A stretch of 58,980 nt of DNA, from NCBI GenBank assembly GCA_018817505.1, contig JAHITR010000063.1:1-58980 (forward strand). Reading direction: 5' to 3'. The position numbers and the translations under genes were made by a program. The first letter of the stretch is position 1. Each line of letters starts with the position of its first letter. Under the pieces are notes generated by a model that was not told the DNA's origin, did no database searches, and saw only the letters and a list, made by a program, of their open reading frames with translations. This document shows positions 24,145 through 43,700 of the stretch, one piece after another. The stretch comes from Candidatus Bipolaricaulota bacterium. Its GTDB lineage: Bacteria; Bipolaricaulota; Bipolaricaulia; UBA7950; UBA9294.

Positions 24145-24215
24145 CGAGGCGCCGGGGCTCAGTCGAGCCCCGTTTCTCCTTCTTGCCAAAGAAGAAGGGG
24201 AATCACCGAATCTCG
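24145..24215. terminator. Bidirectional terminator region between tyrS and hydrogenase operon
   Basis: CGGGGCTCAGTCGAGCCCCGTTT hairpin and GGGGAAT...AATTCCCC nested hairpin. Confidence 0.6.
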
Positions 24216-24252
24216 GCAATTCCCCCAATTACATCACGCGAAGCGCGAGGCG

Positions 24253-24645
24253 TCAGTCTACAATCAGATTCTTGGAGAATCGGTCCGTATCCGCTAGCAA
24301 GAATTCGGGTGTTGTTGCCAACGCATCAACAGGACATACATCAACACACTGCGCACAAAACGTGCAGCGGGCAACATACATGCGAATCTTCTTGTTTTCG
24401 GGCAAGAACTGAATGACGCTTGCCGGACACACGCGAATGCAAAGCTGACAGCCGATGCATTTCTCGCGATCATAGGCGATCTTACCCCGCAGGTCCGCAG
24501 GAGCGGGCACTGGAGGATGAATCGACGCCTTGCCTGCAGCCACCTTGTTCAACAGTCCGGTTACCGATTTCGGCATGTAGCGCGCAGGAAACGGATTGGT
24601 CGCTGGCTTGCTGAACAACTGCTTTAACAACGTGCCAAAGATCAT
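24253..24645 (-). CDS. mbhN: 2x[4Fe-4S] ferredoxin-type subunit (MbhN / NuoI-like)
   Basis: 'CIGCQLCIRVCPASVI' and 'CTFCAQCVDVCPVDAL'. Confidence 0.88.
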   Translation of the reverse strand: MIFGTLLKQLFSKPATNPFPARYMPKSVTGLLNKVAAGKASIHPPVPAPADLRGKIAYDREKCIGCQLCIRVCPASVIQFLPENKKIRMYVARCTFCAQCVDVCPVDALATTPEFLLADTDRFSKNLIVD

Positions 24646-24654
24646 GAATGCCTC

Positions 24655-25653
24655 CTACACGATCCGATCGAGCATCAGAAGCACCATCCCCAACAGGGAG
24701 ATGCCAGTAATCGGCAGCCAGAATAGCCGAGCGGCTTGTCCGATCTTTAGACGCGCGAACGCAACACGAACCACGATGACTGCGAAGAAGATCACCACGA
24801 ACACCTTCACAAGATAGAAGGCGACATCGATGACGCTTCCCCAGATTCCTCCAGTCACGCCCAACAATCCCGACAGCCCGTAGGGGAAGAACAGGGCCAC
24901 AGTGAGCGACCCCATGACCACCATTTTGATGGCATCCGCCAAATAGAACATGGCCATGTTGCGGCCCGAGTATTCAGCCAGGATTCCGCCTGCGATTTCG
25001 GTTTCCGCTTCAGGGATATCAAACGGTATCTTTGTCAATTCTGCTGGTGTCACGATCATCAACGCGCAGAACAGAAGCAACAGCCCAATGAATCCCAGCG
25101 GACCGACCAGACCCCAGAGAGGATTGGATGCCAGCACAGTCAAGGAAAACACCTGTGCGCCGGGCATGACTGAAGACAAGTACCAGCCCAGCGACAAAAG
25201 TGTGATAGCCAGCGGGAACTCATAGGCCATCATCATGACCAGTTCACGCTGTGCGCCGACGGTGGCAAAGGGGGACCCAGCAGCGAAGCCGCCAAGAACC
25301 ATAGCCAGAGACGGAACCGCGAGTAAGTACAGGATCAGGATGAGGTCCCCGAATCCACCGAGCAGCGGCTCGAATCCGCCCAAGGGCAGGTAGAACAACA
25401 ACGTGCCCACAGCCGCCAATGAGACCAGCGGCATGAGATTGAACAGCCAGGCCACGGCGTGATCGGGAACGACGTTTTCCTTCACCATCAACTTAACGAC
25501 ATCGAAGAATGGCTGACGTAGTGGCGGACCGATGCGGCCCTGCATCTGAGCAGCCAGCTTGCGGTCGAGCCCTTTGTAGATCATCCCCAGGAACGTACCT
25601 CCTACGAGGATGATGAGTCCCTGCCAGACGGCATTGAGAAGTGTGGCGCTCAT
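24655..25653 (-). CDS. mbhM: NuoH-like membrane subunit (MbhM)
   Basis: 'GPPLRQPFFDVVKLMVKENVVPD', 'LTKIPFDIPEAETEIAGGILAEYSGRNMAMFYLAD'. Confidence 0.9.
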   Translation of the reverse strand: MSATLLNAVWQGLIILVGGTFLGMIYKGLDRKLAAQMQGRIGPPLRQPFFDVVKLMVKENVVPDHAVAWLFNLMPLVSLAAVGTLLFYLPLGGFEPLLGGFGDLILILYLLAVPSLAMVLGGFAAGSPFATVGAQRELVMMMAYEFPLAITLLSLGWYLSSVMPGAQVFSLTVLASNPLWGLVGPLGFIGLLLLFCALMIVTPAELTKIPFDIPEAETEIAGGILAEYSGRNMAMFYLADAIKMVVMGSLTVALFFPYGLSGLLGVTGGIWGSVIDVAFYLVKVFVVIFFAVIVVRVAFARLKIGQAARLFWLPITGISLLGMVLLMLDRIV

Positions 25654-26909
25654 CCGCAGATCCTCCTTGTCTTTTCACGCGACAGTCGTACGAGTTCTTC
25701 CTTCATCCGAGTCGTCTTGTTCCCAGCAGCATCGGCAAGATGCACACGATCCATGCAGCACATGCACGGGTCAATGGACGCAGCGATGATGGGAACGTCA
25801 GCGATTTCGTCTCCCAGGAATTTGGGCACCCACGCCATCAGATTGGAGTAGGTGGGAGCCTTAACCTTCCATACAGCCAGCTCTTCCACGCCTTCCGCAA
25901 GTCTGACATAGTGGATGACCTCGCCTCGCGGGGCCTCATGCCGCCCGATTCCTTCGCCCGAGGCCTTCTTCAACGCAGCCAAGAGAGCGGGAACTTTGGG
26001 AATAGACATGAGCTCACCTGACGGCAAGTTCTCCAGACAGTACTCAATGATCCCGATGGACTGCTGCACTTCGAGCAATCGCACGATGATGTTATCGTAA
26101 ACGTCTCCGCGAGGTTCTGTACCGAAATCTGCAGGCGTGATCGCCCTAATATCCATGTCCGCATAAGCTAGATACGGCATATCTTGACGAACGTCCTTCT
26201 TAACGCCTGACGCGCGGGCAGTGGGACCGACGGCACAGAGTTCGATGGCTTGATCGTATGTCAGCGCGCCGACATCGCGTGTTCTCATCTCCACGGACTT
26301 GTCATGCAAGAAGGCGTCAATCATCTGCTGGAGAAGGCTCTTGTAGTAGTCGAGCGCCTCGTAGGCAAGATGCGCCTTCTCTGCGGGAACGTCGCGGCGG
26401 ACACCGCTGAAGATCGGGATTGCATAATCGACGCGATTCCCCGTGAGTTCTTCCAGCAGATCCATCGATTTCTCTCGGACATTCCACGTGAGGTGCAGCA
26501 GCGTATCGAATCCGAGTTCGTGCGCGCCGACGCCTGCCCACAGCAAGTGCGAGTGTACGCGTTCCAGCTCACCGATAATCGTTCGAATGTACTGAGCCCG
26601 CGGCGGCACTTCAATTCCTGCGGCATTTTCCACGGCTTGCGTGAAGGCCAACGGATGCGAGATGGAACAAATACCGCAAATGCGTTCAGACAGATAGAGG
26701 GCCTGAATCAAATTGCGTTTCATGCCCATATACTCGATGCCTCGGTGGGCAAAACCAGGCTTGATATCCACGCCGACGATTCGTTCGCCATCCAGATCGA
26801 AACTGAATCGGATGGGTTCCTTCAGCGCCGGATGAACGGGGCCAACGGGGACGGTATACGTGGTGGCGGCGCATTGTCCCACTTTTAGATTGATGGAGTC
26901 GTTATTCAT
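25650..26909 (-). CDS. mbhL: [NiFe] hydrogenase large subunit, group 4 (MbhL)
   Basis: N-terminal 'RICGICSISHPLAF' and C-terminal 'DPCMCCMDR' retain all four Ni-ligand Cys positions. Confidence 0.9.
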   Translation of the reverse strand: MNNDSINLKVGQCAATTYTVPVGPVHPALKEPIRFSFDLDGERIVGVDIKPGFAHRGIEYMGMKRNLIQALYLSERICGICSISHPLAFTQAVENAAGIEVPPRAQYIRTIIGELERVHSHLLWAGVGAHELGFDTLLHLTWNVREKSMDLLEELTGNRVDYAIPIFSGVRRDVPAEKAHLAYEALDYYKSLLQQMIDAFLHDKSVEMRTRDVGALTYDQAIELCAVGPTARASGVKKDVRQDMPYLAYADMDIRAITPADFGTEPRGDVYDNIIVRLLEVQQSIGIIEYCLENLPSGELMSIPKVPALLAALKKASGEGIGRHEAPRGEVIHYVRLAEGVEELAVWKVKAPTYSNLMAWVPKFLGDEIADVPIIAASIDPCMCCMDRVHLADAAGNKTTRMKEELVRLSREKTRRICG

Positions 26910-27429
26910 TGCGCCCCTCCCATTTCACCATTCGCTTGACTTCCTTGGCCGTCTCTTCTTCAAGATCCTTGCGCCATGGGTGAATCGTGGCGCCCTCGGG
27001 CAAGAAGAGGTTGCGACTGTCAGGAATGCCGACGACGTCGATTCCATAGAACTCGATTTTTTCACGTTCCGACGTCTGAGCACCCGCCAGCAAGTCTGTG
27101 ATGGTCGGAATCGACAAATCGGACTTGGGAAGCATCGTTCGAATGGTGAACGTTGCCTCTCCGTAGCGCTCGCCCCAACCCACAGTGAAGTGGTAGTTCA
27201 GTGCCACGTTTTCGCCCAGATCGTCTCCTGAAATCACCGAAAGGTGAGGCGTGTACTCGGTGCACAGATGGGCCACTGCATTGTGGAACGAATCGCGCTC
27301 GACGGTGATCCACAGATCATAGACCTTGCCAGGATCGATCGTCCCCACCGTACGTTCGATGGTACGATCGCCGAGATAGGCTCCTCCGAGCGCATGCTTG
27401 AACGAAGCAAAGAGATTCTCTACGTTCAT
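26902..27429 (-). CDS. mbhK: NuoC/30-kDa-like subunit (MbhK)
   Basis: position plus 'WGERYGEATFTIRTMLPKSDLSIPTITDLLAGAQTSEREKIEFYGIDVVG'. Confidence 0.85.
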   Translation of the reverse strand: MNVENLFASFKHALGGAYLGDRTIERTVGTIDPGKVYDLWITVERDSFHNAVAHLCTEYTPHLSVISGDDLGENVALNYHFTVGWGERYGEATFTIRTMLPKSDLSIPTITDLLAGAQTSEREKIEFYGIDVVGIPDSRNLFLPEGATIHPWRKDLEEETAKEVKRMVKWEGRNE

Positions 27430-27875
27430 TCGCCCCCCCTCGATTTTTCTAACGTCTCCAACTTGGCAACCGCCTTGACCACGCCATCGATGATTGCTTC
27501 AGGACGCGAAGGGCATCCTGGCACATAGACGTCGACAGGGATCACTTCGTCGATTGGTCCGACCACGTTGTACGACTCATAAAAGACGCCGGACGTCGAG
27601 CCGCAACCGCCAACGACGACGACTGCTTTTGGATCTGGAGTTTGCTCATAGATGCGCTTGAGTCGTGGCAGCATCGGCTTGGTCACCGGACCGGTGATCA
27701 GCAAGACGTCCGCGTGACGGGGCGTACCCGTAAGCATAATCCCGAATCTTTCCACATCGTACCGTGGCGTCAATGCAGCCACGATCTCGATATCACAACC
27801 ATTACATGACCCTGTGGCTACGTGGAACACCCACAGCGCCCGCTTAAAAGAACGAGGTAGTGCCATGTCGCTCAC
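27426..27875 (-). CDS. mbhJ: Hydrogenase small subunit (MbhJ / NuoB-like)
   Basis: 'GSCNGCDIEIVAALTPRYD...GGCGSTSG...VPGCPSRPEAI' proximal cluster ligands. Confidence 0.9.
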   Translation of the reverse strand: MSDMALPRSFKRALWVFHVATGSCNGCDIEIVAALTPRYDVERFGIMLTGTPRHADVLLITGPVTKPMLPRLKRIYEQTPDPKAVVVVGGCGSTSGVFYESYNVVGPIDEVIPVDVYVPGCPSRPEAIIDGVVKAVAKLETLEKSRGGE

Positions 27876-28213
27876 CTAGCCAATACGAGAATAACGAACA
27901 CCAATCCGAGCACTCCGACGAACCATGCTGCATAGTCCGAGAGAATGCCGGTATGCCATGCCTTCACACGTCGGTAATAGGCGGATAGCCCATCGATCAT
28001 TCCCCAATACAGGTGATCCCCACGAACGTGGAGTCCATTGGAGGTTTCAGGCTCGTCGTTACCAGACAGGAAGACCTTCGTCTGCCCGGTTCCGCGTTTG
28101 TAGCCTTTGTTCCCAAACGAACGCACGATGAAGGACACCACGAGGATGCCGACGAAAAGCAAGGCCCAGGCAATGGGATTCCATACGCCGAAGCCGGAGC
28201 TTAGTCCACTCAT
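27872..28213 (-). CDS. mbhI: MbhI-like membrane subunit
   Basis: 113 aa, two TM segments, between mrpD-like and small-subunit genes as in mbh operons. Confidence 0.75.
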   Translation of the reverse strand: MSGLSSGFGVWNPIAWALLFVGILVVSFIVRSFGNKGYKRGTGQTKVFLSGNDEPETSNGLHVRGDHLYWGMIDGLSAYYRRVKAWHTGILSDYAAWFVGVLGLVFVILVLAR

Positions 28214-28215
28214 TG

Positions 28216-29775
28216 CTAGCCTCCCAGTACCGCGTTGATGTACGCATCACGTCCGAGCCAAAGGGCCTTGGCTGCCGGCGTCACGATGTGATCGACAAAG
28301 AATCCGGGGAACAACCCGAACACAATGACCACCAACACCAATGCCGCCATCGGCAGCATCATGCCTAGCGATGGATCGGAAACGTGGGCCGATGTATTCG
28401 ATCGAGGTCCCAAGAATGCTGCTTGGAACGCCTTCACGAAGACAGCCAATAACATAATGCTCGACAGAACAGCCAATACGGCCAGGAATGGATTCAGCTT
28501 GAACGCCGCTTCATAGATGAGGAACTTGGAGGCGAAGCCGTTGAACGGCGGTACGCCAGCAAGGGCGACTGCGCCGATGGCGAAGAAGATGCTTGTCCAT
28601 TTCATTCGATGACCGAGACCGCCCATTTGATTGAGATCTCGCGTTCCGGCTGCTCGTATCACAACGCCAGAAGCGAAGAACAGCAGCCCAACGCAGGCGG
28701 CATCGTTGATCATGTGGAAGATGCCTCCCTGCATGGCGACCAACCCATATTCTGGCCTAGTCGCTATCACTGCCATACCTACGCCGACGCCCAACAGCAT
28801 GTAACCAATCTGGGACACGGCACCGAAGGCGACCAATCGCTTGAGATCGCTTTGAATGAGTGCCATCGTCACGCCGACGAAGATCGTCAGAAGAGCAAGA
28901 ACGATGAGGATCCACCCCACGGTCCCTGTGCTGATGCTCGCCCCAAACAGCGTGAACAAGATGCGAAACAACCCGTACAGGCTGGCTTGGGAATTGACCA
29001 CGAGAACCGCGGACATCGGAGCTGGAGACTCACCATACGCGTCAGGCGCCCACATGTGCATGGGTACAGCGCCAGCTTTCATAGCCAATCCCGTCAATAA
29101 GAGCCCGAGGGCAACCATGTCGGTCAGGCTTCCCTGAATGCTCCGTGCGAGGACAGCGATGTTGAGGTGTCCATATTGTCCGTACAGCAAGCCGATGGCT
29201 AGCAGGACAAACAGTCCGGACAGTGTGTACATGGCCATGACCTTGAAGCCAGCTTCCTGAGATTGTTTGAGCCAGACGCGGAACCCGACCATGCTGGCAG
29301 CAGCTATGGATGTGATTTCAAGGAACACGAAAAAGTTGAACATGTCCCCTGTCAGCACCATGCCAAAAACGCCTGCAATCAGCATCAGGAACAGACTGAA
29401 ATAAAGGTTGCCGCCTGAGCGTTCCTTCCAGTACGAGAAGCTGAAGAACGCGCCCGTGAGAGCGATGAGGGCCGTAATCAAGCCCATGAACGCGCTCATG
29501 CCGTCGACCTCGAACAGGATCCGTACAGGCACTTGGCCGCCAGAAAGCGGGAACGTGAACGTTCCGCCGCCCAGCTCGTACACGGTTGGGATGCCGCCCG
29601 ATCCAAAGACATCAATGGCGAGCATCGCAGCCAGTCCTGCCACAGCGAGGACGATGAGTCCAATGAGAGTGTTGCGTGCTCCTTTGCCGAGCTTGCCCAC
29701 AAGAGGCGTTGCAAACGCGCCGAGTAGCGGCAGCGCGACAAGGAGAATCGGTGCATGCAGAGTCAATGCGGTCAT
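28216..29775 (-). CDS. mbhH: MrpD/NuoN-like antiporter subunit (MbhH)
   Basis: 'FNFFVFLEITSIAAASMVGF', 'LLTGLAMKAGAVPMHMWAPDAYGESPAPMSAVL', 'FGAVSQIGYMLLG'; ATG 29775. Confidence 0.92.
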   Translation of the reverse strand: MTALTLHAPILLVALPLLGAFATPLVGKLGKGARNTLIGLIVLAVAGLAAMLAIDVFGSGGIPTVYELGGGTFTFPLSGGQVPVRILFEVDGMSAFMGLITALIALTGAFFSFSYWKERSGGNLYFSLFLMLIAGVFGMVLTGDMFNFFVFLEITSIAAASMVGFRVWLKQSQEAGFKVMAMYTLSGLFVLLAIGLLYGQYGHLNIAVLARSIQGSLTDMVALGLLLTGLAMKAGAVPMHMWAPDAYGESPAPMSAVLVVNSQASLYGLFRILFTLFGASISTGTVGWILIVLALLTIFVGVTMALIQSDLKRLVAFGAVSQIGYMLLGVGVGMAVIATRPEYGLVAMQGGIFHMINDAACVGLLFFASGVVIRAAGTRDLNQMGGLGHRMKWTSIFFAIGAVALAGVPPFNGFASKFLIYEAAFKLNPFLAVLAVLSSIMLLAVFVKAFQAAFLGPRSNTSAHVSDPSLGMMLPMAALVLVVIVFGLFPGFFVDHIVTPAAKALWLGRDAYINAVLGG

Positions 29776-30122
29776 CCCTTCAGCTCCTTCACTTTTCGAA
29801 CATCGAGGGTGCCGTAATGACGATGGACGAATACGGCAAAGGAAAGAAGCAAAGCCGTGGTCGCCAATCCGATGACGATGCTTGTCAGTGTGAGCGCCTG
29901 TGGTGTAGGTAGAACCATCTGTTGCGCTTCGGGTGCGAACGTATAGATCGGCGAGATTCCGCCGGTTCGATATCCGAGTGTGACCAAGAACAGGTTGACG
30001 CCCGTCTCGATCAGCGTGATTCCGATCACGAGCTTGATCAGATTGCGCTTGAATAGGAACGTGTACAGGCCCAGCACAACCAGCAGTGCGGCAACGATAA
30101 ACGGGAGGTTTCCAATATTCAT
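29772..30122 (-). CDS. mbhG: MrpC/NuoK-like subunit (MbhG)
   Basis: 'RNLIKLVIGITLIETGVNLFLVTLGY...LTLTSIVIGLATTALLLSFAV'. Confidence 0.92.
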   Translation of the reverse strand: MNIGNLPFIVAALLVVLGLYTFLFKRNLIKLVIGITLIETGVNLFLVTLGYRTGGISPIYTFAPEAQQMVLPTPQALTLTSIVIGLATTALLLSFAVFVHRHYGTLDVRKVKELKG

Positions 30123-30595
30123 TCGGTCTCCTCCTTATGAGATCCAACGAGCATGACGATCACGACGGCGGCGATGCCGGTCATGACCTTCAATCCCACG
30201 GCCCAGTTCATGAGTGGAACCAGCCCGCCTGCGGTGAGAACGCCTGCGTTCGAGCCTGTCGGCACAGAAGCTCCAAACAAGAAGCCACCTGAGTTGGCGA
30301 ACAGGTTGTAGAAGAAGGCCGTTCCAATACCCAGGAATGCAAGTCCCAGGAATGCAAGGGCTCCGAATTCTTCAATGCTCTGAAGCCAGTGTAGATTCAG
30401 CTGCCCCTTCAAGCCCGCAGATCCAAAAGCGACCAGTAGCAGTGCGAAGGCACTGGCGACTACTGCGCCTCCTTGGAATCCGCCGCCTGGCGTGAGGTGT
30501 CCGTGCATGATCACATAGAAGCCAAACAGGATGATGAGCCCGTACATGAACCGAGTGACTGTGCGAACGATGACTGACATGGAATTGTTGTTCAT
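30119..30595 (-). CDS. mbhF: MrpB-like subunit (MbhF)
   Basis: 'LIILFGFYVIMHGHLTPGGGFQGGAVVASAFALL'. Confidence 0.92.
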   Translation of the reverse strand: MNNNSMSVIVRTVTRFMYGLIILFGFYVIMHGHLTPGGGFQGGAVVASAFALLLVAFGSAGLKGQLNLHWLQSIEEFGALAFLGLAFLGIGTAFFYNLFANSGGFLFGASVPTGSNAGVLTAGGLVPLMNWAVGLKVMTGIAAVVIVMLVGSHKEETE

Positions 30596-30867
30596 CGTTC
30601 ATCCTCCCGGAGCTTGCGAAACAGGCCCAAAACACCAACGACAGCTGCGAACAGAACCGTCGCTTCGCCCAACGTGTCAAAACCACGGTAGTCAAACACC
30701 ACGGCGGTTACGGCGTTGTTCACAGCGACTTCTGGCTGTGCATTCTGGATGTAGTAGTCATCCATGACCGCCATCTGAGGCTCACCAAATGGTCGCATGT
30801 CGGCTACTCCGAGAAGAAGGAATGCGCCGACAAACAAGAACGCGACGAAGAGAATGGCTTTTCTCAT
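30592..30867 (-). CDS. mbhE: MrpB N-terminal-like subunit (MbhE)
   Basis: 'AVVFDYRGFDTLGEATVLFAAVVGVLGLFR'. Confidence 0.88.
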   Translation of the reverse strand: MRKAILFVAFLFVGAFLLLGVADMRPFGEPQMAVMDDYYIQNAQPEVAVNNAVTAVVFDYRGFDTLGEATVLFAAVVGVLGLFRKLREDER

Positions 30868-31115
30868 TCTTCCTCCTTTCGAGCAGTACGGCGGATGGCA
30901 ATCACATAGATGGCCGTTGTGAGTGCGGCGCCAATAGCGGCTTCGGCAATGGCCACATCGGGTGCTTGCAGCATATAAAACTCAAGTGAAACCAATAGGC
31001 TTGCTGCAGCAAGAGCTAGAACCGATGAGAGCAGATCCTTGAACCAAACTGCCAGAGCAGCTCCGATGACGATGAGCACGAGGACGACGACATGAAGGAT
31101 GCTTTGTACAATCAT
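30864..31115 (-). CDS. mbhD: MbhD-like subunit (MrpA C-terminal-like)
   Basis: 'LAAASLLVSLEFYMLQAPDVAIAEAAIGAALTTAIYVIAIRRTARKEEE'; ATG 31115. Confidence 0.88.
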   Translation of the reverse strand: MIVQSILHVVVLVLIVIGAALAVWFKDLLSSVLALAAASLLVSLEFYMLQAPDVAIAEAAIGAALTTAIYVIAIRRTARKEEE

Positions 31116-31447
31116 GATCGATCCTCCAGTTTGTCTACGACAGCACCCTTCGGCTTGACTCCACTGCGATACGCCGCGCGGGCGATGGCGTGAGATCCTG
31201 TGGGGTTGGTTACCAACAGCGCGATCAGGGCGATAATGACGTGAATAGCCAACGTATTGTACTGGGCGCCGCCACGGGCAAATCCGTACACAATGACTCC
31301 CAAGGCAGTGAACAGTGAGCCGAACGTTGTGCACTTGGTCGCTCCGTGAAGCCTCGTGTAGACGTCGGGGAAGCGAACCAGGGCAATGGCGCCCAAGCCG
31401 TTGAACAGAACCCCGATCCCAAGTAGGACATATAGGAGTATGCTCAA
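31112..31447 (-). CDS. mbhC: MrpG-like subunit (MbhC)
   Basis: 'LIGVLFNGLGAIALVRFPDVYTRLHGATKCTTFGSLFTALGVIVY'. Confidence 0.9.
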   Translation of the reverse strand: MSILLYVLLGIGVLFNGLGAIALVRFPDVYTRLHGATKCTTFGSLFTALGVIVYGFARGGAQYNTLAIHVIIALIALLVTNPTGSHAIARAAYRSGVKPKGAVVDKLEDRS

Positions 31448-31713
31448 TTCAATCCCCCTTCTAGGTAGCGAGCGATATACAGTGTTCCAACGAATGACAA
31501 CAGTGCGTAGATGATGGCCACATCAATGAACACGACCTGATCAAAGGCCGCACCCAGGACGATCATCGACGCAACAACCAGCGTATTGAGTGTGTCAAGT
31601 CCGACGACGCGGTCGCCGACTGTCGGCCCCAGCCCGATTCGTAACAGACTAAACATCACGAAGAACGCGAAGCAGGCCGCGACGATGAAGAACACCAGGG
31701 GTTCAATGATCAT
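31444..31713 (-). CDS. mbhB: MrpF-like subunit (MbhB)
   Basis: 'LLRIGLGPTVGDRVVGLDTLNTLVVASMIVLG'. Confidence 0.9.
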   Translation of the reverse strand: MIIEPLVFFIVAACFAFFVMFSLLRIGLGPTVGDRVVGLDTLNTLVVASMIVLGAAFDQVVFIDVAIIYALLSFVGTLYIARYLEGGLN

Positions 31714-32240
31714 TCCGCGATCCTCCTTGCCCAGTCAACGAACGATCCGCACACCGCTTCCGCGGACGGATCCGTGTCTCTCACGTTGATCCAATGCACG
31801 AATAGATCTCCACTCTCCTCATCCACATCGACGGTCAGCGTTCCCGGAGTCAGCGTAATCGAGTTGGCCAACAAGGTGGTTCCGAAATCAGTGCTCAGCC
31901 CGGGGCTGAGACGTACGATTCCAGGACGGATCTTGCCAGTGATGACCCGATAGGCAACATCGAGATTGGCTTTGGCCATCGCCCACAGGAACGGCCCAAT
32001 CAGATAGACAAGAAACAACAGCCAACGAAGAGGATTCAGCATTCGCAGCGAACTCTTTCGGCCTTCTTTCTTGCGATTGAATGCAACGCGCCCAGCGATA
32101 GCTCCGACGATGAGGGAAAGGACTGCGCCCGAAATCCATTCTTCGAGGCTCCATGCAACGATCGTTCCGCTGCCAAATGTCAGCAGAAGATAGAAGAAGA
32201 AAGCTCCGATGGCAGTGACAAAGAATGCAAGCATTCTCAC
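31710..32240 (-). CDS. mbhA: MrpE-like subunit (MbhA)
   Basis: 'AKANLDVAYRVITGKIRPGIVRLSPGLSTDFGTTLLANSITLTPGTLTVDVDEESGDLFVHWINV'. Confidence 0.9.
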   Translation of the reverse strand: MRMLAFFVTAIGAFFFYLLLTFGSGTIVAWSLEEWISGAVLSLIVGAIAGRVAFNRKKEGRKSSLRMLNPLRWLLFLVYLIGPFLWAMAKANLDVAYRVITGKIRPGIVRLSPGLSTDFGTTLLANSITLTPGTLTVDVDEESGDLFVHWINVRDTDPSAEAVCGSFVDWARRIAE

Positions 32241-32383: not shown

Positions 32384-35300
32384 CTACTCAACCTGAATAG
32401 GAATGCTCAGGGTGTCTGATGCCCCGGAGTTGTCTGTCACAGTGAGTGAGACGGTGGTCGTGCCAGATGCGGGGAAAATGTGCTCAGCGAACGCCGTTTC
32501 AGCATCGATCGTTCCATCGTGATTGAAATCCCAAGCATAGGCAACGATTTCGCCATCGAAGTCCCAGGACAGCGTCCCATTGAACAGGACCAATTCTCCG
32601 GCAGACGGGCGACTGGGCATGTAGGAGAAGTCAGCGACTGGAGGCTGGAACGAAGACGGCGGAGATGGCGGCGCGGATGATGCGACATTGACGAACACCG
32701 CTTGAGTGTAGGCATCTGTATTTCCTGAGTCGTCGGTAACTGTCAAGGTAACATTGAATGTTCCTGCAGTCGGGAAGACGGTTTGAGCAAAGCCATCCGT
32801 AGAATCAACGATGCCATCATCATTAAAATCCCAGGCATAGGCGACGATATCTCCATCGATGTCAGATGACAGGAGACCGTTAAACAGCACCTGCGACCCT
32901 GCTGCAGGTACGGTCGGTGAGTATTCAAAGTCCGAGAGCGGAGGCAGTGAGGGCTCCGACTGCGTCGGCGATGTATTTGCCGCGATTGGTATCTGTCGCG
33001 TTAACGAATCAGTGCCTCCTGAGTCATCCGTGACTGTGAGAGTGACACGAGCGTCGCCAATGATTGCGAACGCGTATTCGGAAATGGCTGCCAACGAGTC
33101 CACCACTCCATCTTGATTAAAGTCCCAAGCGTAGACTGAAATCTGACCGTCTGAATCTGTAGATAGTGTCCCGTTGAACACAACGACGCTTCCCGATTGC
33201 GGCTCAGACGGTGAGTAGTCGAAGTCAGCGATCGGGGGGAGTAGGGTGATTGGCGCTGTCGTTGTTTCAGGGGCGCCCGCTCCGACAGTCACTTGCAAGG
33301 TGAGCGTGTCCGTGGCACCGGAGTTGTCAGTGACTGTGAGTGAGACATCATAAACCCCATCTTCAATGAAACGGTAGTCGACGATGGCTGCCGAGGAATC
33401 GGTTTGACCGTCAGCGTTGAAATCCCAAGCAAATGCCACGATTTGGCCGCCAGCATCTGTAGACAGGGTCGCGTTGAACAGGACAACGGCACCGGCCTCT
33501 GGTTTGGTAGGCAAGTAGGCAAACGCAGCGACAGGTGGGGTTCCGCTGGTCGGTGTCGGGGCTGGCGAAATGACCTCAACGGTCAGTGTGATGCTATCGG
33601 AATTGCCATCGTCATCGGTCACCGTCAATGTCACTTCATGGAGCCCAGCCGTTGCGAACGCATACTCTGCAAAGGGTGCAGTTGAGTCCGTTATCCCATC
33701 TGCATTGAAGTCCCACGCAAACGTCTCGATCAACCCGTCCAGGTCCAGAGAAGGCGTGCCGTTGAACCTGATGATTTCTCCAGGAGACGGAGCCGTTGGC
33801 GAAATCTGGAAACTGGCGATCGGCGGCTGAGCCGCAATCGGAGCGTCCGCTGGGGGCTCGACAGGTGTTTCATCTGCAGTGTTTGCTGGCGTGTCCATGA
33901 TGACGGGGGTCCGCGCGGAGTCGGTGATGACCACGGCGTAGGTTACGGTATCGGAATTGCCGCCATTGTCCGTGACGGTCAGAGAGATGTCGTAAGTGCC
34001 TGCCATCAAGAAGACCTTGGACGTAATCGCTTCATGGGAATCCGAGACGCCATCTCCATCAAGATCCCAAGCATAGGCCGACAAGACACCATCAAAATCC
34101 GACGAGGAGGTGCCATTGAATTGGACGATCTCGCCCGTCTGTGGCTGTGCAGGCACATAGGTGAAGTCAGCCACTGGGGGCTGGAACGAAGCGCTCGAAG
34201 GAGCCGCGGAACCTTCGCCTACGGTAACCGGATAGATGACTGTGTCTTCGTTTCCCGTATCGTCAAGGACTGTCAATGCGATATCAAACGTACCCGCCGA
34301 CTGAAACGCATGAACAACCACGGGTTCCGTCGAATCGACAACGCCATCGGCATTGAAGTCCCATGCGAAGGCGACGATGGTTCCGTCGAAGTCGAATGAG
34401 TAGGTTCCGTCGAACGTGACAGGAACACCTGCGATCACTGTTTCGGGCTCGTAGAAGAAGTCGGCCGTGGGCGGCTGGAACGTGATCACGACCTCGCGTT
34501 CTCGTATGTAGCCACCGAATGAGATCGGCAGCGCGGCCTGCGCTCCAACGACCAACTCAACCTGCTGTTGAGTGGTGAATACGAATCGTTCGGGGAGCGA
34601 GGTCTCATCGACGGATAGCGTATAGGTTCCGGGAAGAATATCGGCGATGGTGAAACGGCCAGCTAGATCGGTGAATGCATCGGAGAATCCGCCGTCAGTC
34701 GTCGACTCCAAAACGAGGCGTACTTGCGCCAATCCGCCCTCGTCTCCGGCTCTTGAGCCGTCCTTGTCCACATCCTCAAACACGTCGCCGGTGATCACGA
34801 CGACCGGGAGAAGGGGAATGTCCACCCAAAGCGTCTCTCCAGCGATAACCGTGACCGTCACAGGTTCGCCAACAGCCGCATTGACGGGGAGTTGATCGGG
34901 AGCAAGCGTGTAGTCGCCGGGATAAACGGGGGTGAACCGGAAGTATCCGTCGGCATTGGTGGAGACTTGCGTACGCCCTGCTCCCACCACGATGGTTCCC
35001 GCAGGCTCGTCATTCAGCCCGTATAAACCATCGCCATCACGATCAATGAATGCGCGGCCTTCGATGCGCCCTTTGGTCACCAGGAATGGAAGAGGAATGT
35101 TCACGTTGGCATTGAAGGAGATTCCCCATCCGAAGCTAATATCGTTGGCATCATGGCGATCCCACGAAATCGAGCCGTCAAACACGACATCCAAGTCATC
35201 CGTGAAATGAATGAAGAAGGATGCAGAGAGATCGAAATCATCTCGTGTGTTCCCAAATGTAATCGATGCTTCGTGAAGCGCAGTTTCAGGCTGGAAACGG

Positions 35301-37153
35301 ATGGATAGATCGGAAGATGAAGACAATGGTGTGTCCGCGATGACATCGAAGCTCTGGGACTCCGTCAGCTGGAAATAGAGGTAGAACGCCTCGATGGCCA
35401 AGCCAGCGCCTTGTGAATAGGTGGTCGTTCGTACGTGTGAATTCAGCACCAAATCCTGTTGCTCCAGCACCTTCCCTGTCAGGGAATAGGGGAACACGCC
35501 CGCTGTCTCTGTGAGGCTGACGGCCACCAGCGTGTCGACGTCGTTCTTGACGGACAAGTCGGCATATCGGTCCCACGAGAAATCGAGGGTCGAAGCCAAT
35601 GTGGGCCCGTTCTCCAGGGGTGTGGCCGTGAGATTGAACCCCAAGTCATCTTGAATGCGCGTCGGAAGAAGCGGATCACGATTGACGTTGTCCCACTCAT
35701 GGGACAGAGAGCTACTCAGAGATATGGCTGTCAGCCGAAGCCGCTGGGATACCTCGATTCCGGCTGAATCGGCTCGTTGTCCGGGAAAGAATGTGCCGAC
35801 AGAGTAGGCGCTTCCGCTGAAGAAATATCCTGATGAATCAATGGTCGTGTTGAAGAAAAGTGCGCGACTCGTAAGCGGGCCGTCCAGGCCGAGGCTACCT
35901 TCGATGTCCAGTGTCCAATCATCAAGTGGCGCTGCATGGGCAGTGGCCGTCCACAGGGATTTCGAAACCGATACCGCATCGCGAATCCCCAAGTAGCCGA
36001 TGCCTATGTTGGCCACATCTGGTCCAAGAGCAAGATACCCGGCAAATCGGGTTTCATTGTTGCTCCCGCCGCCGATCACAGACAGATCGACATACTCCGC
36101 ATCGATCTTCAACGATCCGCCCGTGCACGATAGGCGAACGAGATCTGTGAGAGACTGCGAAACACTGCCAATGGAGAACGTGCTGGGGGCTAGACGATAA
36201 AGCATCGAGAATGAGCTGATCCTGGCCTTCGTTGGCCCAAAGGGATCGAGAAGACTGAAAAAGGACGAGAAATACCCGCCAAGGATTTGTCCAGAAGTAG
36301 AGAATGTCAGCTGGCTGTCGAACGCATTGGTCATTACGTTCTTGTCAATCGAGATTCGAATTCGTGCAGGCAGCTCTTCCATGACGGTTCCCCCCACTGC
36401 ATCGGGAGCTGGGGGAAGAACGGACGTAAAGACAACGGCATCGGAGTTGACGCCTTCATAGATTGCAGATTCCGCCACGACAGTTAGCACATCTCGTCCA
36501 GGTTCCGTACCCATGGGGATAGTGATCTGAACGGTAAACGGCAGCCGTTCTTGAGGAGCCAGGTTTGCTGAGTCATGTGACAGTGCAATGGACAGTCCGC
36601 GAGATGAACTGGCCGTGAGAACCAACGAATCCTGAACATTACCTCGATTGATGAGAACGAATTCGTAAGTCATTGAATGTCCGGGGGCAATACTTGCTCC
36701 CGTAGGGGCAACGAGTTCAATTTGCGTCATGGGCGTAACCAGCACGGTCCCCATGGCTGTCCCATAGTTCAACGCGTCGGATTGTGCCGTGGCCGTGAAT
36801 GCCAAGACGTATTCGCCTGCGACGGCCCCAGCCGGGATGGTGGCGGTGACGAACAGCGTGCCTTCCTCATTTGGCTGCAGTGCAATGGAACTGGGAGCAC
36901 CGAGAAGCCCCCAGCCAGCAGGAGCGACAAACGATAGCGAGAAGGTCTCAGGATTCGGGGAATCGTTGATGAGTCCAAAAACATGCGTGACGAATGATCC
37001 TGGCGCTCCATCTTTCGGAGTGGAAAGGAGGCTGACCTCAACGGACATTCCGCCAAGGCTCACAAGGATCACCAGCAATAGGGCGATCAGCGTTCCCTTC
37101 TGTAACCTCTGGTTGCACGCCAACATGACGATTAACCGTATGTGATGTGGCAC
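32384..37153 (-). CDS. Giant secreted protein: signal peptide, NEW3-like/Ig-like N-terminus, Cna-B/SdrD-like modules, seven C-terminal PKD domains
   Basis: 1589 aa; seven 'PP.A.F.Y.P..P..G..V.FNGT.S.D.DG.I.AYAWDFN.DG..DS......F...G...V.LTVTD.SG..D' units. Confidence 0.88.
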   Translation of the reverse strand: MPHHIRLIVMLACNQRLQKGTLIALLLVILVSLGGMSVEVSLLSTPKDGAPGSFVTHVFGLINDSPNPETFSLSFVAPAGWGLLGAPSSIALQPNEEGTLFVTATIPAGAVAGEYVLAFTATAQSDALNYGTAMGTVLVTPMTQIELVAPTGASIAPGHSMTYEFVLINRGNVQDSLVLTASSSRGLSIALSHDSANLAPQERLPFTVQITIPMGTEPGRDVLTVVAESAIYEGVNSDAVVFTSVLPPAPDAVGGTVMEELPARIRISIDKNVMTNAFDSQLTFSTSGQILGGYFSSFFSLLDPFGPTKARISSFSMLYRLAPSTFSIGSVSQSLTDLVRLSCTGGSLKIDAEYVDLSVIGGGSNNETRFAGYLALGPDVANIGIGYLGIRDAVSVSKSLWTATAHAAPLDDWTLDIEGSLGLDGPLTSRALFFNTTIDSSGYFFSGSAYSVGTFFPGQRADSAGIEVSQRLRLTAISLSSSLSHEWDNVNRDPLLPTRIQDDLGFNLTATPLENGPTLASTLDFSWDRYADLSVKNDVDTLVAVSLTETAGVFPYSLTGKVLEQQDLVLNSHVRTTTYSQGAGLAIEAFYLYFQLTESQSFDVIADTPLSSSSDLSIRFQPETALHEASITFGNTRDDFDLSASFFIHFTDDLDVVFDGSISWDRHDANDISFGWGISFNANVNIPLPFLVTKGRIEGRAFIDRDGDGLYGLNDEPAGTIVVGAGRTQVSTNADGYFRFTPVYPGDYTLAPDQLPVNAAVGEPVTVTVIAGETLWVDIPLLPVVVITGDVFEDVDKDGSRAGDEGGLAQVRLVLESTTDGGFSDAFTDLAGRFTIADILPGTYTLSVDETSLPERFVFTTQQQVELVVGAQAALPISFGGYIREREVVITFQPPTADFFYEPETVIAGVPVTFDGTYSFDFDGTIVAFAWDFNADGVVDSTEPVVVHAFQSAGTFDIALTVLDDTGNEDTVIYPVTVGEGSAAPSSASFQPPVADFTYVPAQPQTGEIVQFNGTSSSDFDGVLSAYAWDLDGDGVSDSHEAITSKVFLMAGTYDISLTVTDNGGNSDTVTYAVVITDSARTPVIMDTPANTADETPVEPPADAPIAAQPPIASFQISPTAPSPGEIIRFNGTPSLDLDGLIETFAWDFNADGITDSTAPFAEYAFATAGLHEVTLTVTDDDGNSDSITLTVEVISPAPTPTSGTPPVAAFAYLPTKPEAGAVVLFNATLSTDAGGQIVAFAWDFNADGQTDSSAAIVDYRFIEDGVYDVSLTVTDNSGATDTLTLQVTVGAGAPETTTAPITLLPPIADFDYSPSEPQSGSVVVFNGTLSTDSDGQISVYAWDFNQDGVVDSLAAISEYAFAIIGDARVTLTVTDDSGGTDSLTRQIPIAANTSPTQSEPSLPPLSDFEYSPTVPAAGSQVLFNGLLSSDIDGDIVAYAWDFNDDGIVDSTDGFAQTVFPTAGTFNVTLTVTDDSGNTDAYTQAVFVNVASSAPPSPPSSFQPPVADFSYMPSRPSAGELVLFNGTLSWDFDGEIVAYAWDFNHDGTIDAETAFAEHIFPASGTTTVSLTVTDNSGASDTLSIPIQVE

Positions 37154-37728: not shown

Positions 37729-40700
37729 TCATTCACCTGCTGGCTCGATCAGCAGAGTTCTTCCGTCCGAACGTCCGAATACTTCAGGGAAGTAGAACTC
37801 CTGGGCCAGCGTGGGCAATACGCCGAATTCTCCTGGGACCACGGCACGAAGGCTATATTGGAACGTGTAGGTCCCTGATGGGAGATAGTCGGCAAACAAC
37901 ACGGCCTTCTCATCGCGGAATTCAGAACGGGAGTACCAACGCCACCACCACCAATAGAACCAGTTGGAGCCACTCGATGAGTCTCGGAACAATCCCGGTT
38001 CGGTCGCAGCGCGACTTGTGGTTGCCAGTGAAGGATCGATGGCTTCGCAGCCGGCTGGGAATGGATCCTCGACGACGACGTAATAGAGGTCATTCGGAGC
38101 AATGATCGTGAGACGAACTTGGATTTCCTCGCCGACAGAGATCGTGTCGATTTCAGGGCAGGGCTCGCCGATCGCACAGGATGCGGCGACATACTGTCTC
38201 TGAACGATAATGCCCCGCTGCAGCGCACCGACCTCCTCCACAGGGATGTAAGACGTAAGGTGGGCTGTGTAGTACAGCCGTCCCGTGCCCTCACCTCGTG
38301 CAACAGTCAATGTGTTGCTCGTCCCCGGCAAGAGATCATGAGCGCCAACCGAGAATTCAATCGGCTCAGTCTGCGCTGTGCCATCAGTCTGTCCCTCGAA
38401 TAGCTGAACGCCGTTGATGGCTGCCTCGAAACTGTAGGTCGGATTCAACTCGCCAGTCGCGACCATCCAATCGGTTAGTGAGATCAGAGCCCATGCGGTT
38501 TCTTGCGTCGTCTCCCAAATTCCGCCCGATCGTGCGACCATCAGCCAGCGAACGACATTGGGCAGCATCGGCTGATCGGGGTTCAGTCGAACCAAGGCAT
38601 CGAGGATGATGGCTGTCGATCGCGTGTCCGTGTTCATCGCCCACCAATCGTAAGTCGACTCCTCCCAGTGGATTCCCGTTGCGGAAATGATGGCCTGCGA
38701 ATAGAGATCCGAGAGAAGGGTGTCCACTGAAGAAGAACTGCCGTTGGAGAGCTGCAGAGTCAACGCCAGCCATGCGCGTGCATAATGGCTGAGCTTGCTT
38801 CGTACAGTGAACAGCTCACTGGCAGCATTGAGTGCATCAGTGTGCCGGTTTCCTTCAGAAAGCACATAGGCAATCCAGGCTTGGCGGTTGGCAATCACCG
38901 TTGATGTGAGGTTCTTGGGCGCGACCAACGAATTGGCGAGGAAGTCGAGGCCATTCTTGAGCGCATCTCGTTGAATCCCAAAATCAGCTTTCTGCGCCTG
39001 CAGCAAGGCATAAACAGCGTATGCAGACAGATAAGGATTCGATCTGTCGCCGTCCCACCATCCCCAGCCGCCATCGGCGTTCTGCCTTGCATAGAGCTTG
39101 TCAATTCCCTCAGTGACCAGGCTGGGAAGCTTGTCTGCCAACGCCTGGTTCTCGATGCCCAGTTCAACCAGGGCACGATAGGTGAGGACGTTGGGGAGGA
39201 ATCGACTGATCACCTGCTCGGTGCACTCGTACTCGAAGTGCTCGAGATAGTCGAGTCCCTGCTGCATAGCTGCAGCAAGAGACGTTTCCAAGCGAATCAA
39301 CAACTCGGAACGGTCCATATCAAGGCCAGGCAACAAGCCGATGATCTCCGTCCGGTTCCCAAAGCCATCCAGTTGACCGGCTGTCCCCACGATCTCAGGG
39401 GACGTGTACCTATAGACAAGCAACGTTCCATCTGGGCCTGTTGTCAATCGCGGACGTGCGGCATCGGACAAGTCCCCAGATTCGACGCTGAACGCGATGT
39501 CCACTGCATCGACATCTTGGACTGTTCCCCACCATACGACAGCCATCTCCCCTCGAGCGGGCACGGTCACTGTTTGGACGGCCCCTGTTTCAAGCGACAA
39601 ACCGGTTTGCGCAAGGGTGACTTCGGCGCTCAGGTCCTCATCCGTTTGGTTGGACACGTTGGCCAGAAGCTGCAATCGGTCACCGACCACGAAGAAACGC
39701 GGTGTGACGGGGCGGATGAGCAGCGGCTTGGTTACCAGCAGTTCTGAAGTGGATTCACCAACGTCCGTCTGGGTCGAGATCCCGACAGCACGGGCAACCC
39801 AGGTCGTCAGATTGTCGGGCAATTGGATGATCAGTCGAGCATAGCCCAGACTGTCCGTGGTCACAGAGCCGTCCCAAAATGCAGTATCCTCGAAATCTTC
39901 GCGAAGCGTGATGCCTTCGGGTAGTTGCGCTGCCGCACTTCGCATGACGGGATCGTGATCGGCGGCTCCAGCTTCTTCTGCCAGGGCAGTGGGCGCGAAC
40001 ACGGCGCCAACGCTCGTGTCATCTTGCTGTGCCTTGACGGCATCGAGCGTTTCGAGTTCTTCAAGCTGCTCAATGACCAAGCGATTGATGGAGAGAGTTA
40101 ATCCACTCGATGTGGACACACCTAGGCCGCGTCTTCCATAGAACGCATCAAGAATGGCGTTGGGCGTCCGCGGGCGAAGCGACAATACGGCAGCATCCAC
40201 CAAATCGAACGCAAGAGAACTGGGTAGCGGAAGGCCGTCGGCATCTGTGACCCATAGGTCATAGGCGATCTCAGTGCCGGGTAGCGATTGCTCGCTGGAT
40301 GGCACCATTTCGATGTGCAATGACTTGGGATCTCTTGACACAGTCAACGCTGCGTACCCGATCTTGGTTTCGGCAGCAGCGGTTGCACCATCGGCTGCCA
40401 ACGTGGCCGCCTCCAATCCCTGGAACAGCACAACACTGACGTAAATGTTGGGGATGTGCTCCAGCGTGATGGGGACCTCAATGACGGTACTGTTGGATTC
40501 CAGCAATCGGACATCACGGTAAAGGATGCCCCCTCGCTCAATGGTTAACAGTGCCCAGTGCGGCCCGGAATAGGGACTGGGCACAAGGATCTGCGCTGTC
40601 TCTCCAACTTCGTACTCGGTCTTGTCAGGAATCAATGTGATGCGATCATCATTGCTGCGTTGCCAAGAGACGCTTTCTGGGCCGCTTGCCCACAGAAACA

Positions 40701-43700
40701 GACTGGTGCGCGTTTCGTTCCCAGCGGCATCTGTTCCGATGGCAAGCACTTTGTAGGTTCCGCCCTCGGGCGGGGAGAATGAGAAGACGCCGACACCCTT
40801 TTCATCCGTTCGTAGCGTACCCGTCTCGACTTCGGTGTCATAGGTCTTCCAAGTCCAACGGCCACCCCCGGCTGCGTCCTGTTCGAAGGTGTTTTCCCAT
40901 TCCCTGTGGATGACTTGATATGTAAGATCCTGTGAGCCGATCCGCTCGCCAGCCCAATCGACGGTCACGACATCGATCGCCGTGTCGTCACCAGCCCGGG
41001 CGATCGATCGAGCCGTTGCCAGTCCGGCGTAGAAGGATGCTGCATGGACGATGATCGTGGATCTTCCAGAAATGACTTGGCCATCAGCCCCTCGCGTCGT
41101 GGCCTCAATCGTCAATGTCTGACTCCCGGATTGGACGTCCTTGACGCCGAAGACAAGGTTCGCGGGAAATTCAATCAGGAGGTTGCCATCGACATCTGTC
41201 GTACCTGAACCTTCCAGAACAGGCACGGAAGGTGTGGACGGCATCCACCAGCAGCTCCAGCAATCCCAGGGATCGTCCCGGTCTGAGAACGTATATCGAC
41301 TGAGGTGAGAAGGCGAGAAGTTGTAGGCTTCGGAGTAAATGCTCCATTCGACAGATTGTTGAGATACGGGCGCACCGAAGAAGTACTCGACTTGCACGTT
41401 TGTTCGTACAGTATCTCCTGCAACGTGTTGATCCTCATCTGGGGTGACCACGACCTGAAATTCGGGAGCGCGATAGGCAGCAACATCGAATGTGTCGGTG
41501 TGGTAGGAACGAGTGGTTTCAATTTCGATGCGATAGGTGCCAATGGCTGCATCGGTTTCTAGCTCAAACTGACCAGAGAACGTGCCGAATGCGTCGACGG
41601 CAAGCCGCCCCTCATAGATCAATGACCAATCTGAGTCTCTGACCGTCACCCCGACGGATTCGTCGCTTGGCAACGAGTAGAGGACATCTTGCTCATCTCG
41701 AAGGACGCCGCGGAAAGATACCGTTTGTCCGGGTCTGTAAATGGGACGATCGGTGTCGAGGAAGAGTCGCTCTTCAGAGCTTCCACCAGAGGAATAGCCG
41801 AAATTCCAAATAGATATTCCCGTCGTCCATTGCGAATTTCCCAGCGAGAACGGGACTGCGCTTGCTACAGTGATCCCTCGCCAATCATAGGCATCCGTGC
41901 CCGCGAAGATGGCGATACCATTTCCGTCTGTGACTGTTGCTTCCAGGGCATCTCCATCTGAATCATACGTTCGTAGAATTAGGCCGGGAATCGGGTCTCC
42001 CGTCAATAGATCGCAGGCCCACACAAGGGTTTCGGTGTCCGATGTCTTCATCGTGAGATTCAGCGGGCTGGCGATGAGCAGATGCCGATGCTGCCAACGA
42101 TTCCAGCTGACTCCTTGTGCATTTATGTCGATGAGATAAATGCCGGGCTCGAGTGACGCGCTATCAGTTAGTAGGTCGATGGGGGCATAACTCACTTTGT
42201 TGAGTTCGCCTGACAGGGACACTGTCCACTTGCGTACGAGAGCGTTCTTGGAGGGGGTGTAGTTGTACCAATCGTTGGTGGCCTTGAAGTACTCATCTAG
42301 GGAGAGGCGTGACAGCGTGAGCGCCACTGAATCAGTATTTCGGTAGGCAATGAATAGCTTGGCGGGCTCATAGGCATTGAAGGTGCCTGTTTGACCAGGA
42401 ACATGCAGCCAGGCCGTTGGATCAAGAGCGGCGGTTTGGAACCTAATTGTCATGGTTTGGTTCGTATGATTCCCGTATGGATCGGCAATATTGGGACCGA
42501 TCCGTACTTCGTAGGTCTGGCTCGGTCCTGAGTCGAACCAAAGCGCATAGGAATTGTCCCAAGAGCGGAAATATCCTGAGACTGTTCCAGGTTCAGGCTT
42601 AGGAAGGATGGTAAGGTTATCTAGAACCGTGTCTGGATCGATAGGGGTATTGAAGGTGATCTCAAGCGACGTATAGGGATAGACATCAGATGCACCGTTC
42701 CTTGGACTCACGGAAATGATCCTTGGAAGAGGGACTGTCTCGAAGCGAGACATGATGGCGTTTTCCATGCCCAAGCCCCCACTAGCACCGGTGACGCCGG
42801 GTTCTAGGGTGATGACATAGGTTCGTGAAAAATCCAATGGATCCCGAGGAGTGAAGGTGACGACGGCCTCGTTGATCGAGAACTCTCCGGGAATCGCCTC
42901 AGAAAACAGGCTGCCGAACAGGCCAGTTGTTCGAAGAACGAATCGCTCCCTGACGCTTTCCAAGGAAACAGGCATGTTGAATGCGAGAACAATGGACGTA
43001 TCAATTGGGACGAGGTCGGCGCTGGTTCGCGGGGACACCCAGACGATGTCAGGTCTCAGCGTCGAGAATCGCCAAACCACGTCTTCTGCGAGCAATCCAC
43101 CGGTAGTGTCTGTGAGTCCGCGTGGCACTGTGACCGTGTATTCGGTGCCGCCTCTGAGGGGGACGGTCGGTGTGAACACGTACATGGACGTGTTCACCCA
43201 CTCTCCGACGCCTGACACTGCGGGCTCGATGATGAGCGGCTGGGGGAGGTTGCTCCGATTGGGATCCGTCAATGTAAGGAGAGGAATCACCGGCCGATTG
43301 AACATGACAAAAATATCGCTATCGACGGCGATCTCTTCGGAATGGTTGACTGGCAGAATCTGAGAAACGTTCAGGAAGCCGACGGTTCGGAATTGAAACG
43401 CAAAGCCCTCTTCAAGAGGTTCCTGCAATGAGGAGGCGGCTTGCTGGGACAACGAAACGGTGTAGACCGTATCACGGACCCATTCGGAATGGGCCACGAA
43501 TCGTAGTGTGCGCTCAGTTGGCCATTCAAAGGAACCCTCGATATCAGGAGTGATTCCCCAGGCCGCTTCAACAGACACCTGATCCATGGCACGGTCGAAG
43601 AGAATCTCCACGACACCGTCGACCAGGAGATCTTCGCCCCTTGTCGGCGAGTGCTGGAGGATGCTCGGGCCACCGAGTGCTCCGGCGGAAATCGCCATGA

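Follow-up and report, generated by a model that had tools for sequence, protein, structure and literature searches.

A Bipolaricaulota membrane-bound [NiFe] hydrogenase of the MBH2 branch without the lysine of transmembrane helix 8

We analyzed a 58,980-nucleotide contig of a Candidatus Bipolaricaulota bacterium (JAHITR010000063.1, assembly GCA_018817505.1; hereafter the window), which carries a 14-gene operon, mbhA to mbhN, for a membrane-bound hydrogenase (MBH) with group 4 [NiFe] architecture. This MBH belongs to the MBH2 branch, apart from the structurally solved Pyrococcus enzyme (MBH1), and its single antiporter-like, MrpD-type subunit, MbhH, lacks the lysine of transmembrane helix 8 (TMH8). 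The operon probably encodes a ferredoxin-oxidizing, H2-evolving group 4d [NiFe] hydrogenase that is linked to an Mrp-type Na+/H+ module and likely exports Na+, with an altered or reduced proton path through MbhH.

Position in the MBH2 branch and the TMH8 lysine of MbhH

Many Thermococcus-family genomes carry two mbh operons in tandem, and the names MBH1 and MBH2 are in use in the Thermococcales literature (PMC12162507, PMC12401011, PMC6981617). Position and identity led us to equate the second of the tandem operons in genome G105 with the published MBH2; the first and second MbhL of that genome are 49% and 55% identical to that of the window. Our criteria for the MBH2 subtype are tree branch and tandem position. 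In a tree of MbhL, the [NiFe] large subunit, MBH1 from Pyrococcus and Thermococcus forms one branch (support 100; all supports are SH-aLRT [Shimodaira-Hasegawa-like approximate likelihood ratio test] values from quick searches, without bootstraps). The sister branch holds Thermococcales MBH2, the Thermoplasmatota copies, and all Bipolaricaulota copies (support 96), the last as one clade (support 95). An MbhH tree computed without the TMH8 and TMH11 columns gave supports of 100 for MBH1, 100 for MBH2, and 96 for Bipolaricaulota, and another MbhH tree supported the MBH2 placement at 99. The original prediction had proposed a phylogenetic check of MbhL, which does group with MBH and not with the membrane-bound sulfane sulfur reductase (MBS) or formate hydrogenlyase; the operon is not, however, the bacterial counterpart of Pyrococcus MBH, but falls within MBH2 in both the MbhL and MbhH trees. 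The sister of the Bipolaricaulota clade is Thermococcales MBH2 in the MbhL tree (83) but Thermoplasmatota in that of MbhH (95). The position of the monophyletic Bipolaricaulota copies among archaeal ones suggests an old transfer, presumably out of archaea, with a donor that differs between trees.

In MrpD-like subunits, the TMH8 lysine has been called key and the sole protonatable residue on that helix, and MbhH of P. furiosus has been described as a standard antiporter-like subunit in which no key residue is missing (PMC7419157). In our alignment, TMH8 of P. furiosus reads SAMLSGLVIKIGGIYAIARI versus SAVL--VVNSQASLYGLFRI in the window. A lysine or histidine in the TMH8 segment is found in none of 65 MBH2-type MbhH sequences (23 from Bipolaricaulota, 29 from Thermococcales, and 13 from Thermoplasmatota, the three groups surveyed), but in 15 of 15 MBH1 sequences. 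Among other antiporter-like subunits, 25 of 26 have one too. In a second draw, 30 Thermoplasmata MbhH again yielded 0/30, about seven of these coming from genomes that the first set had also covered. We rejected an alignment artefact on three grounds: the entire TMH8 segment was scanned for any Lys or His, TMH8 is continuous in AlphaFold2 models of both the window and an MBH1 MbhH, and the second draw had the same outcome. The fold of MbhH is intact as modeled (mean predicted local distance difference test [pLDDT] score 87.7; best structural match 6cfw_H, template modeling scores 0.90/0.92).

These data bear on the reading of the operon as a plain orthologue of Pyrococcus MBH1 that moved into a bacterium and kept the same ion-translocation mechanism, with its differences due to drift. 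Gene order, metal ligands, TMH5 Glu, TMH7 Lys, and TMH12 Lys are all conserved, as such an orthologue would have them. However, MBH1 and MBH2 separate in two trees and coexist in the same Thermococcus genomes, and these separate branches and tandem co-occurrence refute orthology. Nor is the difference at TMH8 drift, since all MBH2-type copies have lost the residue and all MBH1 copies retain it. We regard this reading as quite unlikely.

Of the residues on the MBH1 axis, the window MbhH has lost TMH8 Lys but keeps TMH5 Glu, TMH7 Lys, and TMH12 Lys; these three, together with TMH7 His, are found in MbhH across the whole of MBH2. TMH11 has changed as well: His is replaced by Asp and Lys by Val in the window, and across Bipolaricaulota and part of the Thermoplasmatota the second TMH11 His is Asp and the TMH11 Lys is Val or Ile. 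A deep-branching Bipolaricaulota copy (G059) keeps the TMH11 His and has Glu in place of Lys. Candidates for a compensating charge are two acidic residues, D219 and E249 (window numbering), which are conserved in MBH2 but not in MBH1; they appear to lie off the axis, however, either ahead of TMH7 or where TMH7 and TMH8 meet, so that such a role is doubtful. If anchored downstream, the candidate register of the lost lysine holds Ser/Thr; by analogy to NuoN, it would presumably be the next residue (Gln or Tyr). Outside MBH2, an antiporter-like subunit of a Thermococcus (G101; locus L121, position 13070) also lacks Lys and His in TMH8 (SGLVVNVGVYAMIRF), possibly by independent loss.

Operon layout, active site, and maturation genes

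The host genome (2.66 Mb, 241 contigs, 92% complete) has Bipolaricaulota/Acetothermia metagenome-assembled genomes as its closest relatives. The 14 open reading frames (ORFs) lie between 32240 and 24253, all on the minus strand, and follow the order of Pyrococcus mbhA-N. We identified the subunits by family profile searches and best PDB sequence matches. The families hit were MNHE, MrpF, MnhG, MbhD, MrpB-/MrpC-like, Proton_antipo_M, MbhI, NuoB, NuoC, large subunit, NuoH, and Fer4, and chains of P. furiosus MBH (6cfw) were the top PDB matches for L, J, N, H, I, M, and B. Start positions were set at 31115 (mbhD) and 29775 (mbhH), unlike in the mechanical ORF list. The features are as follows.

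31710..32240, minus: mbhA (MrpE-like); Pfam MNHE 1e-34; start GTG 32240 or ATG 32234
31444..31713, minus: mbhB (MrpF-like); Pfam MrpF_PhaF; best PDB match 6cfw_B
31112..31447, minus: mbhC (MrpG-like), TTG start; Pfam PhaG_MnhG_YufB
30864..31115, minus: mbhD; Pfam MbhD; 6u8y_D and 6cfw_D
30592..30867, minus: mbhE; matches to MrpA C-terminal / MrpB-type models
30119..30595, minus: mbhF (MrpB-like); NF006248, above cut-off
29772..30122, minus: mbhG (MrpC-like); MrpC-like family match; 6u8y_G and 6cfw_G
28216..29775, minus: mbhH (MrpD-like antiporter subunit); Proton_antipo_M; 6cfw_H, 367 bits
27872..28213, minus: mbhI; NF053600 MbhI, 110.9 bits, above cut-off; 6cfw_I
27426..27875, minus: mbhJ (NuoB-like small subunit); 6cfw_J, 197.8 bits; 4 Cys cluster ligands
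26902..27429, minus: mbhK (NuoC-like); Pfam Complex1_30kDa
25650..26909, minus: mbhL ([NiFe] large subunit); 6cfw_L, 410 bits; 4 Cys ligands; 31-residue C-terminal extension
24655..25653, minus: mbhM (NuoH-like); 6cfw_M
24253..24645, minus: mbhN (2x[4Fe-4S] ferredoxin-like, 8 Cys); NF006221, above cut-off; 6cfw_N
24196..24226, minus: terminator-like hairpin 3' of mbhN; 14-pair stem, by pattern match only

Of the 13 junctions, ten overlap by 4 nt and one (K/L) by 8 nt, and two are gaps, of 2 nt (H/I) and 9 nt (M/N). Nearly every relative with enough sequence at the locus has the identical 14-gene order, which excludes a chance arrangement. Past mbhN lie gyrA and tyrS on the opposite strand, and upstream of mbhA lies a gene for a PKD-domain protein; both surroundings recur in close relatives. 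Hence, the original prediction of a complete 14-subunit MBH-type group 4 [NiFe] operon, with junctions mostly overlapping by about 4 nt and set among bacterial genes, holds on all three counts. In one relative of family f8 (L097, G059:C30, 5509-13500), the operon is split, with K-L-M-N running opposite to A-J; other copies are unsplit. The ORFs upstream of mbhA include two very large ones on the minus strand, at 32384-37153 (1589 amino acids, seven PKD domains) and 37729-43764 (2011 amino acids), and several relatives have sequence resembling them, also upstream of mbhA.

The four NiFe-binding cysteines of MbhL (ERICGICS, DPCMCC) are present in the window, as had been predicted, and in 24 of 24 Bipolaricaulota MbhL. 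MbhN has its eight cysteines intact, as in 23/23 Bipolaricaulota copies, and so does MbhJ its four, with only one of the aligned rows missing one of them. MbhL runs 31 residues beyond DPCMCCMDR, as expected of a precursor cut by a protease. A search of the rest of the genome for hypB to hypF and an MbhL protease found hypB, a hypC fragment at a contig end, hypD with adjoining hypE, hypF, and a HycI-type protease. A lack of maturation genes is therefore rejected, and with ligands, tail, and maturation genes all in place, the operon can, judged by its sequence, encode a working hydrogenase. The nickel motif DPCMCC, with an extra cysteine between the ligands, is shared by Bipolaricaulota and the Thermococcales MBH2 copy compared, and the MBH1 and Thermoplasmatota copies compared have DPCLSC in its place.

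The same genome holds two group 3 (Mvh/Hox-like) hydrogenase clusters (L060, G000:C41, 336-3660 and 13043-17991), to each of which a further protease of its own adjoins; one of the two also adjoins a NuoF-like subunit. A second group-4-like complex (L061, G000:C146, 5224-8988) combines HyfF-like, NuoD-like, and NuoB/NuoI-like subunits; it is probably no hydrogenase, because its NuoD-like subunit lacks a CxxC nickel motif.

Proposed working and energetics

How electrons flow, which ion is moved, and how the missing lysine affects coupling are inferred as follows. Pyruvate oxidation by pyruvate:ferredoxin oxidoreductase, whose genes on contig C69 are a candidate source, would reduce ferredoxin, and electrons would then pass through MbhN and MbhJ to the NiFe site of MbhL, where protons would be converted to H2 and released. 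The energy would be relayed by MbhM, MbhI, and MbhH to a membrane arm that is most likely a Na+ exporter. A Na+-type F1Fo ATP synthase of the same genome could draw on the resulting gradient. Its c-subunit reads GEG...ITESTGIY, which, matched by eye, fits the Na+-driven two-carboxylate rotor pattern (Glu32/Glu65/Ser66/Thr67/Tyr70; PMC3692424) and supports a Na+ economy. Of the original claim, Na+/H+ translocation stays plausible but is weaker than stated, since MbhH lacks the TMH8 lysine of the mechanistic models.

With this lysine lost, and in Bipolaricaulota the TMH11 lysine too, proton transfer in MbhH may take another route or be reduced. One route might be a water wire from TMH7 Lys/His to the TMH11 His; another might be a cation path via the polar N-S/T-Q patch at the TMH8 site; a third option is weak coupling. 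Tentatively, and with somewhat more doubt than belief, we propose that the whole branch, which occurs in one bacterial and two archaeal phyla, links the evolution of H2 to ion transport without a TMH8 Lys/His in its antiporter-like subunit. The Lys7-Lys8-Lys12 proton relay that is assumed across the complex I superfamily would then not be obligatory, or would be replaced by a water wire or cation path.

Alternatively, MBH2-type enzymes could be weakly coupled or uncoupled: they would dispose of electrons as H2, or take up H2 for ferredoxin reduction, and MbhH would translocate ions only to a small extent. Losses of the TMH8 lysine, the TMH11 lysine, and several proposed coupling residues fit this idea, and there is a precedent in HycC of E. 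coli formate hydrogenlyase, in which the TMH7 lysine is absent and the N-side path interrupted (PMC9474812). It is hard to square with the strict conservation of TMH5 Glu, TMH7 Lys/His, TMH12 Lys, and the entire Mrp module, which suggests selection for ion transport, and we consider it unlikely.

Several observations weigh against the ferredoxin-driven, ion-coupled reading that we prefer. First, by the alignment used, the MbhI E52/K53 positions are missing from all MBH2-type copies, and Bipolaricaulota have Gly at MbhM E216 and do not conserve MbhH E375; simulations of P. furiosus MBH assigned such residues to redox-ion coupling (PMC11228991). Second, the open-access literature searched contained no protein-level biochemistry on any MBH2-type complex, and MBH2 of T. 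aciditolerans is transcriptionally inert (PMC12401011), though mbh2 of T. barophilus responds at 70 MPa (PMC12162507). Third, the group 3 hydrogenases of the same genome could act as H2 suppliers or consumers. Among the other residues along the coupling path, the MbhG Na+-site residues N34/D37/H41 of MBH1 align to T/E/N in the window, with E and N common to the window and MBS, and MbhL E21 and D379 are conserved in the window.

The slight nearness of MbhG and MbhD to MBS, whose chains (6u8y) are by a small margin their top PDB matches, is what would favor an MBS-type sulfane sulfur reductase or an Mrp-only complex over any hydrogenase. The four Ni-binding cysteines, the C-terminal extension, the hyp genes, the presence of MbhI, one MbhH instead of two, and the position of MbhL in its tree all speak against this identity, which we rejected on the Ni ligands, the single MrpD-like subunit, and the MbhL tree, and to which we give next to no credence. 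MbhL scores 410 bits against 6cfw_L versus 240 against formate hydrogenlyase HycE and 150 against MBS.

Occurrence in the phylum and comparison with known systems

MbhL of the window type occurs in 48 of 100 sampled Bipolaricaulota genomes (above 60% identity, by our count): 10/33 in the window's family, 36/40 in f3, and 2/2 in f8. An energy-conserving Mbh A-N complex has been described in Ca. Bipolaricaulis by Hao et al. 2018 (PMC6092417), and a Lost City study placed a Bipolaricaulota MbhL, that of MAG-1503, in its tree (PMC9469722); because of these publications, the operon as originally worded is real but already known. The text of these two papers, as searched, draws no MBH1/MBH2 distinction and does not mention the TMH8 residue. 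The MBH2 subtype of the Bipolaricaulota copies appears unreported, and so does the missing lysine as far as one open-access literature library shows. Three contigs labeled Atribacteria, Neomarinimicrobiota, and Thermotoga (L001, L004, and L013) carry a Bipolaricaulota MBH; their genomes match G092, G091, and G011 of the window's phylum, and the NCBI labels look wrong. Other Bipolaricaulota (L095, L096, L098-L104, and L109) have a different group 4 cluster with an MbhL-like protein of about 40-47% identity, another gene order, and, where sequence suffices, two or more antiporter-like subunits.

A question at the heart of work on complex I, Mrp, and MBH is how antiporter-like subunits couple proton transfer to chemistry. 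Published models are built on the P. furiosus enzyme, whose MbhH has been described as conserving every key residue (PMC7419157). If our proposal is true, a widespread natural sister branch without the TMH8 lysine makes the role of this residue directly testable, both MbhH versions coexisting in genetically tractable Thermococcus, and the energetics of Bipolaricaulota are not to be simply inferred from the Pyrococcus enzyme.

Closest to the window are Bipolaricaulis Ran1 and MAG-1503 (PMC6092417, PMC9469722), with phylum and gene set in common; MAG-1503 (our locus L010) has 73% MbhL identity to the window and a TMH8 without lysine. Ran1 was reported to lack an ATP synthase (PMC6092417), whereas the window genome has one. 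Thermococcales MBH2 (T. barophilus, T. aciditolerans, Palaeococcus) resembles the window in tree branch, gene order, and a TMH8 without Lys/His, but differs in its 55% MbhL identity, in keeping the TMH11 His and Lys, and in lying in tandem behind MBH1. P. furiosus MBH (6cfw, MBH1) shares the 14 subunits, gene order, NiFe/FeS ligands, and MbhH fold; it differs in about half of its residues, in having MbhI Lys53, and, within MbhH, in TMH8 Lys256 (numbering of the alignment used here) and TMH11 His350/Lys354. Finally, the antiporter-like subunit of E. coli formate hydrogenlyase (group 4a) is likewise minus one key lysine (PMC9474812), but the lysine lost is the one in TMH7, and that enzyme has no Mrp module.

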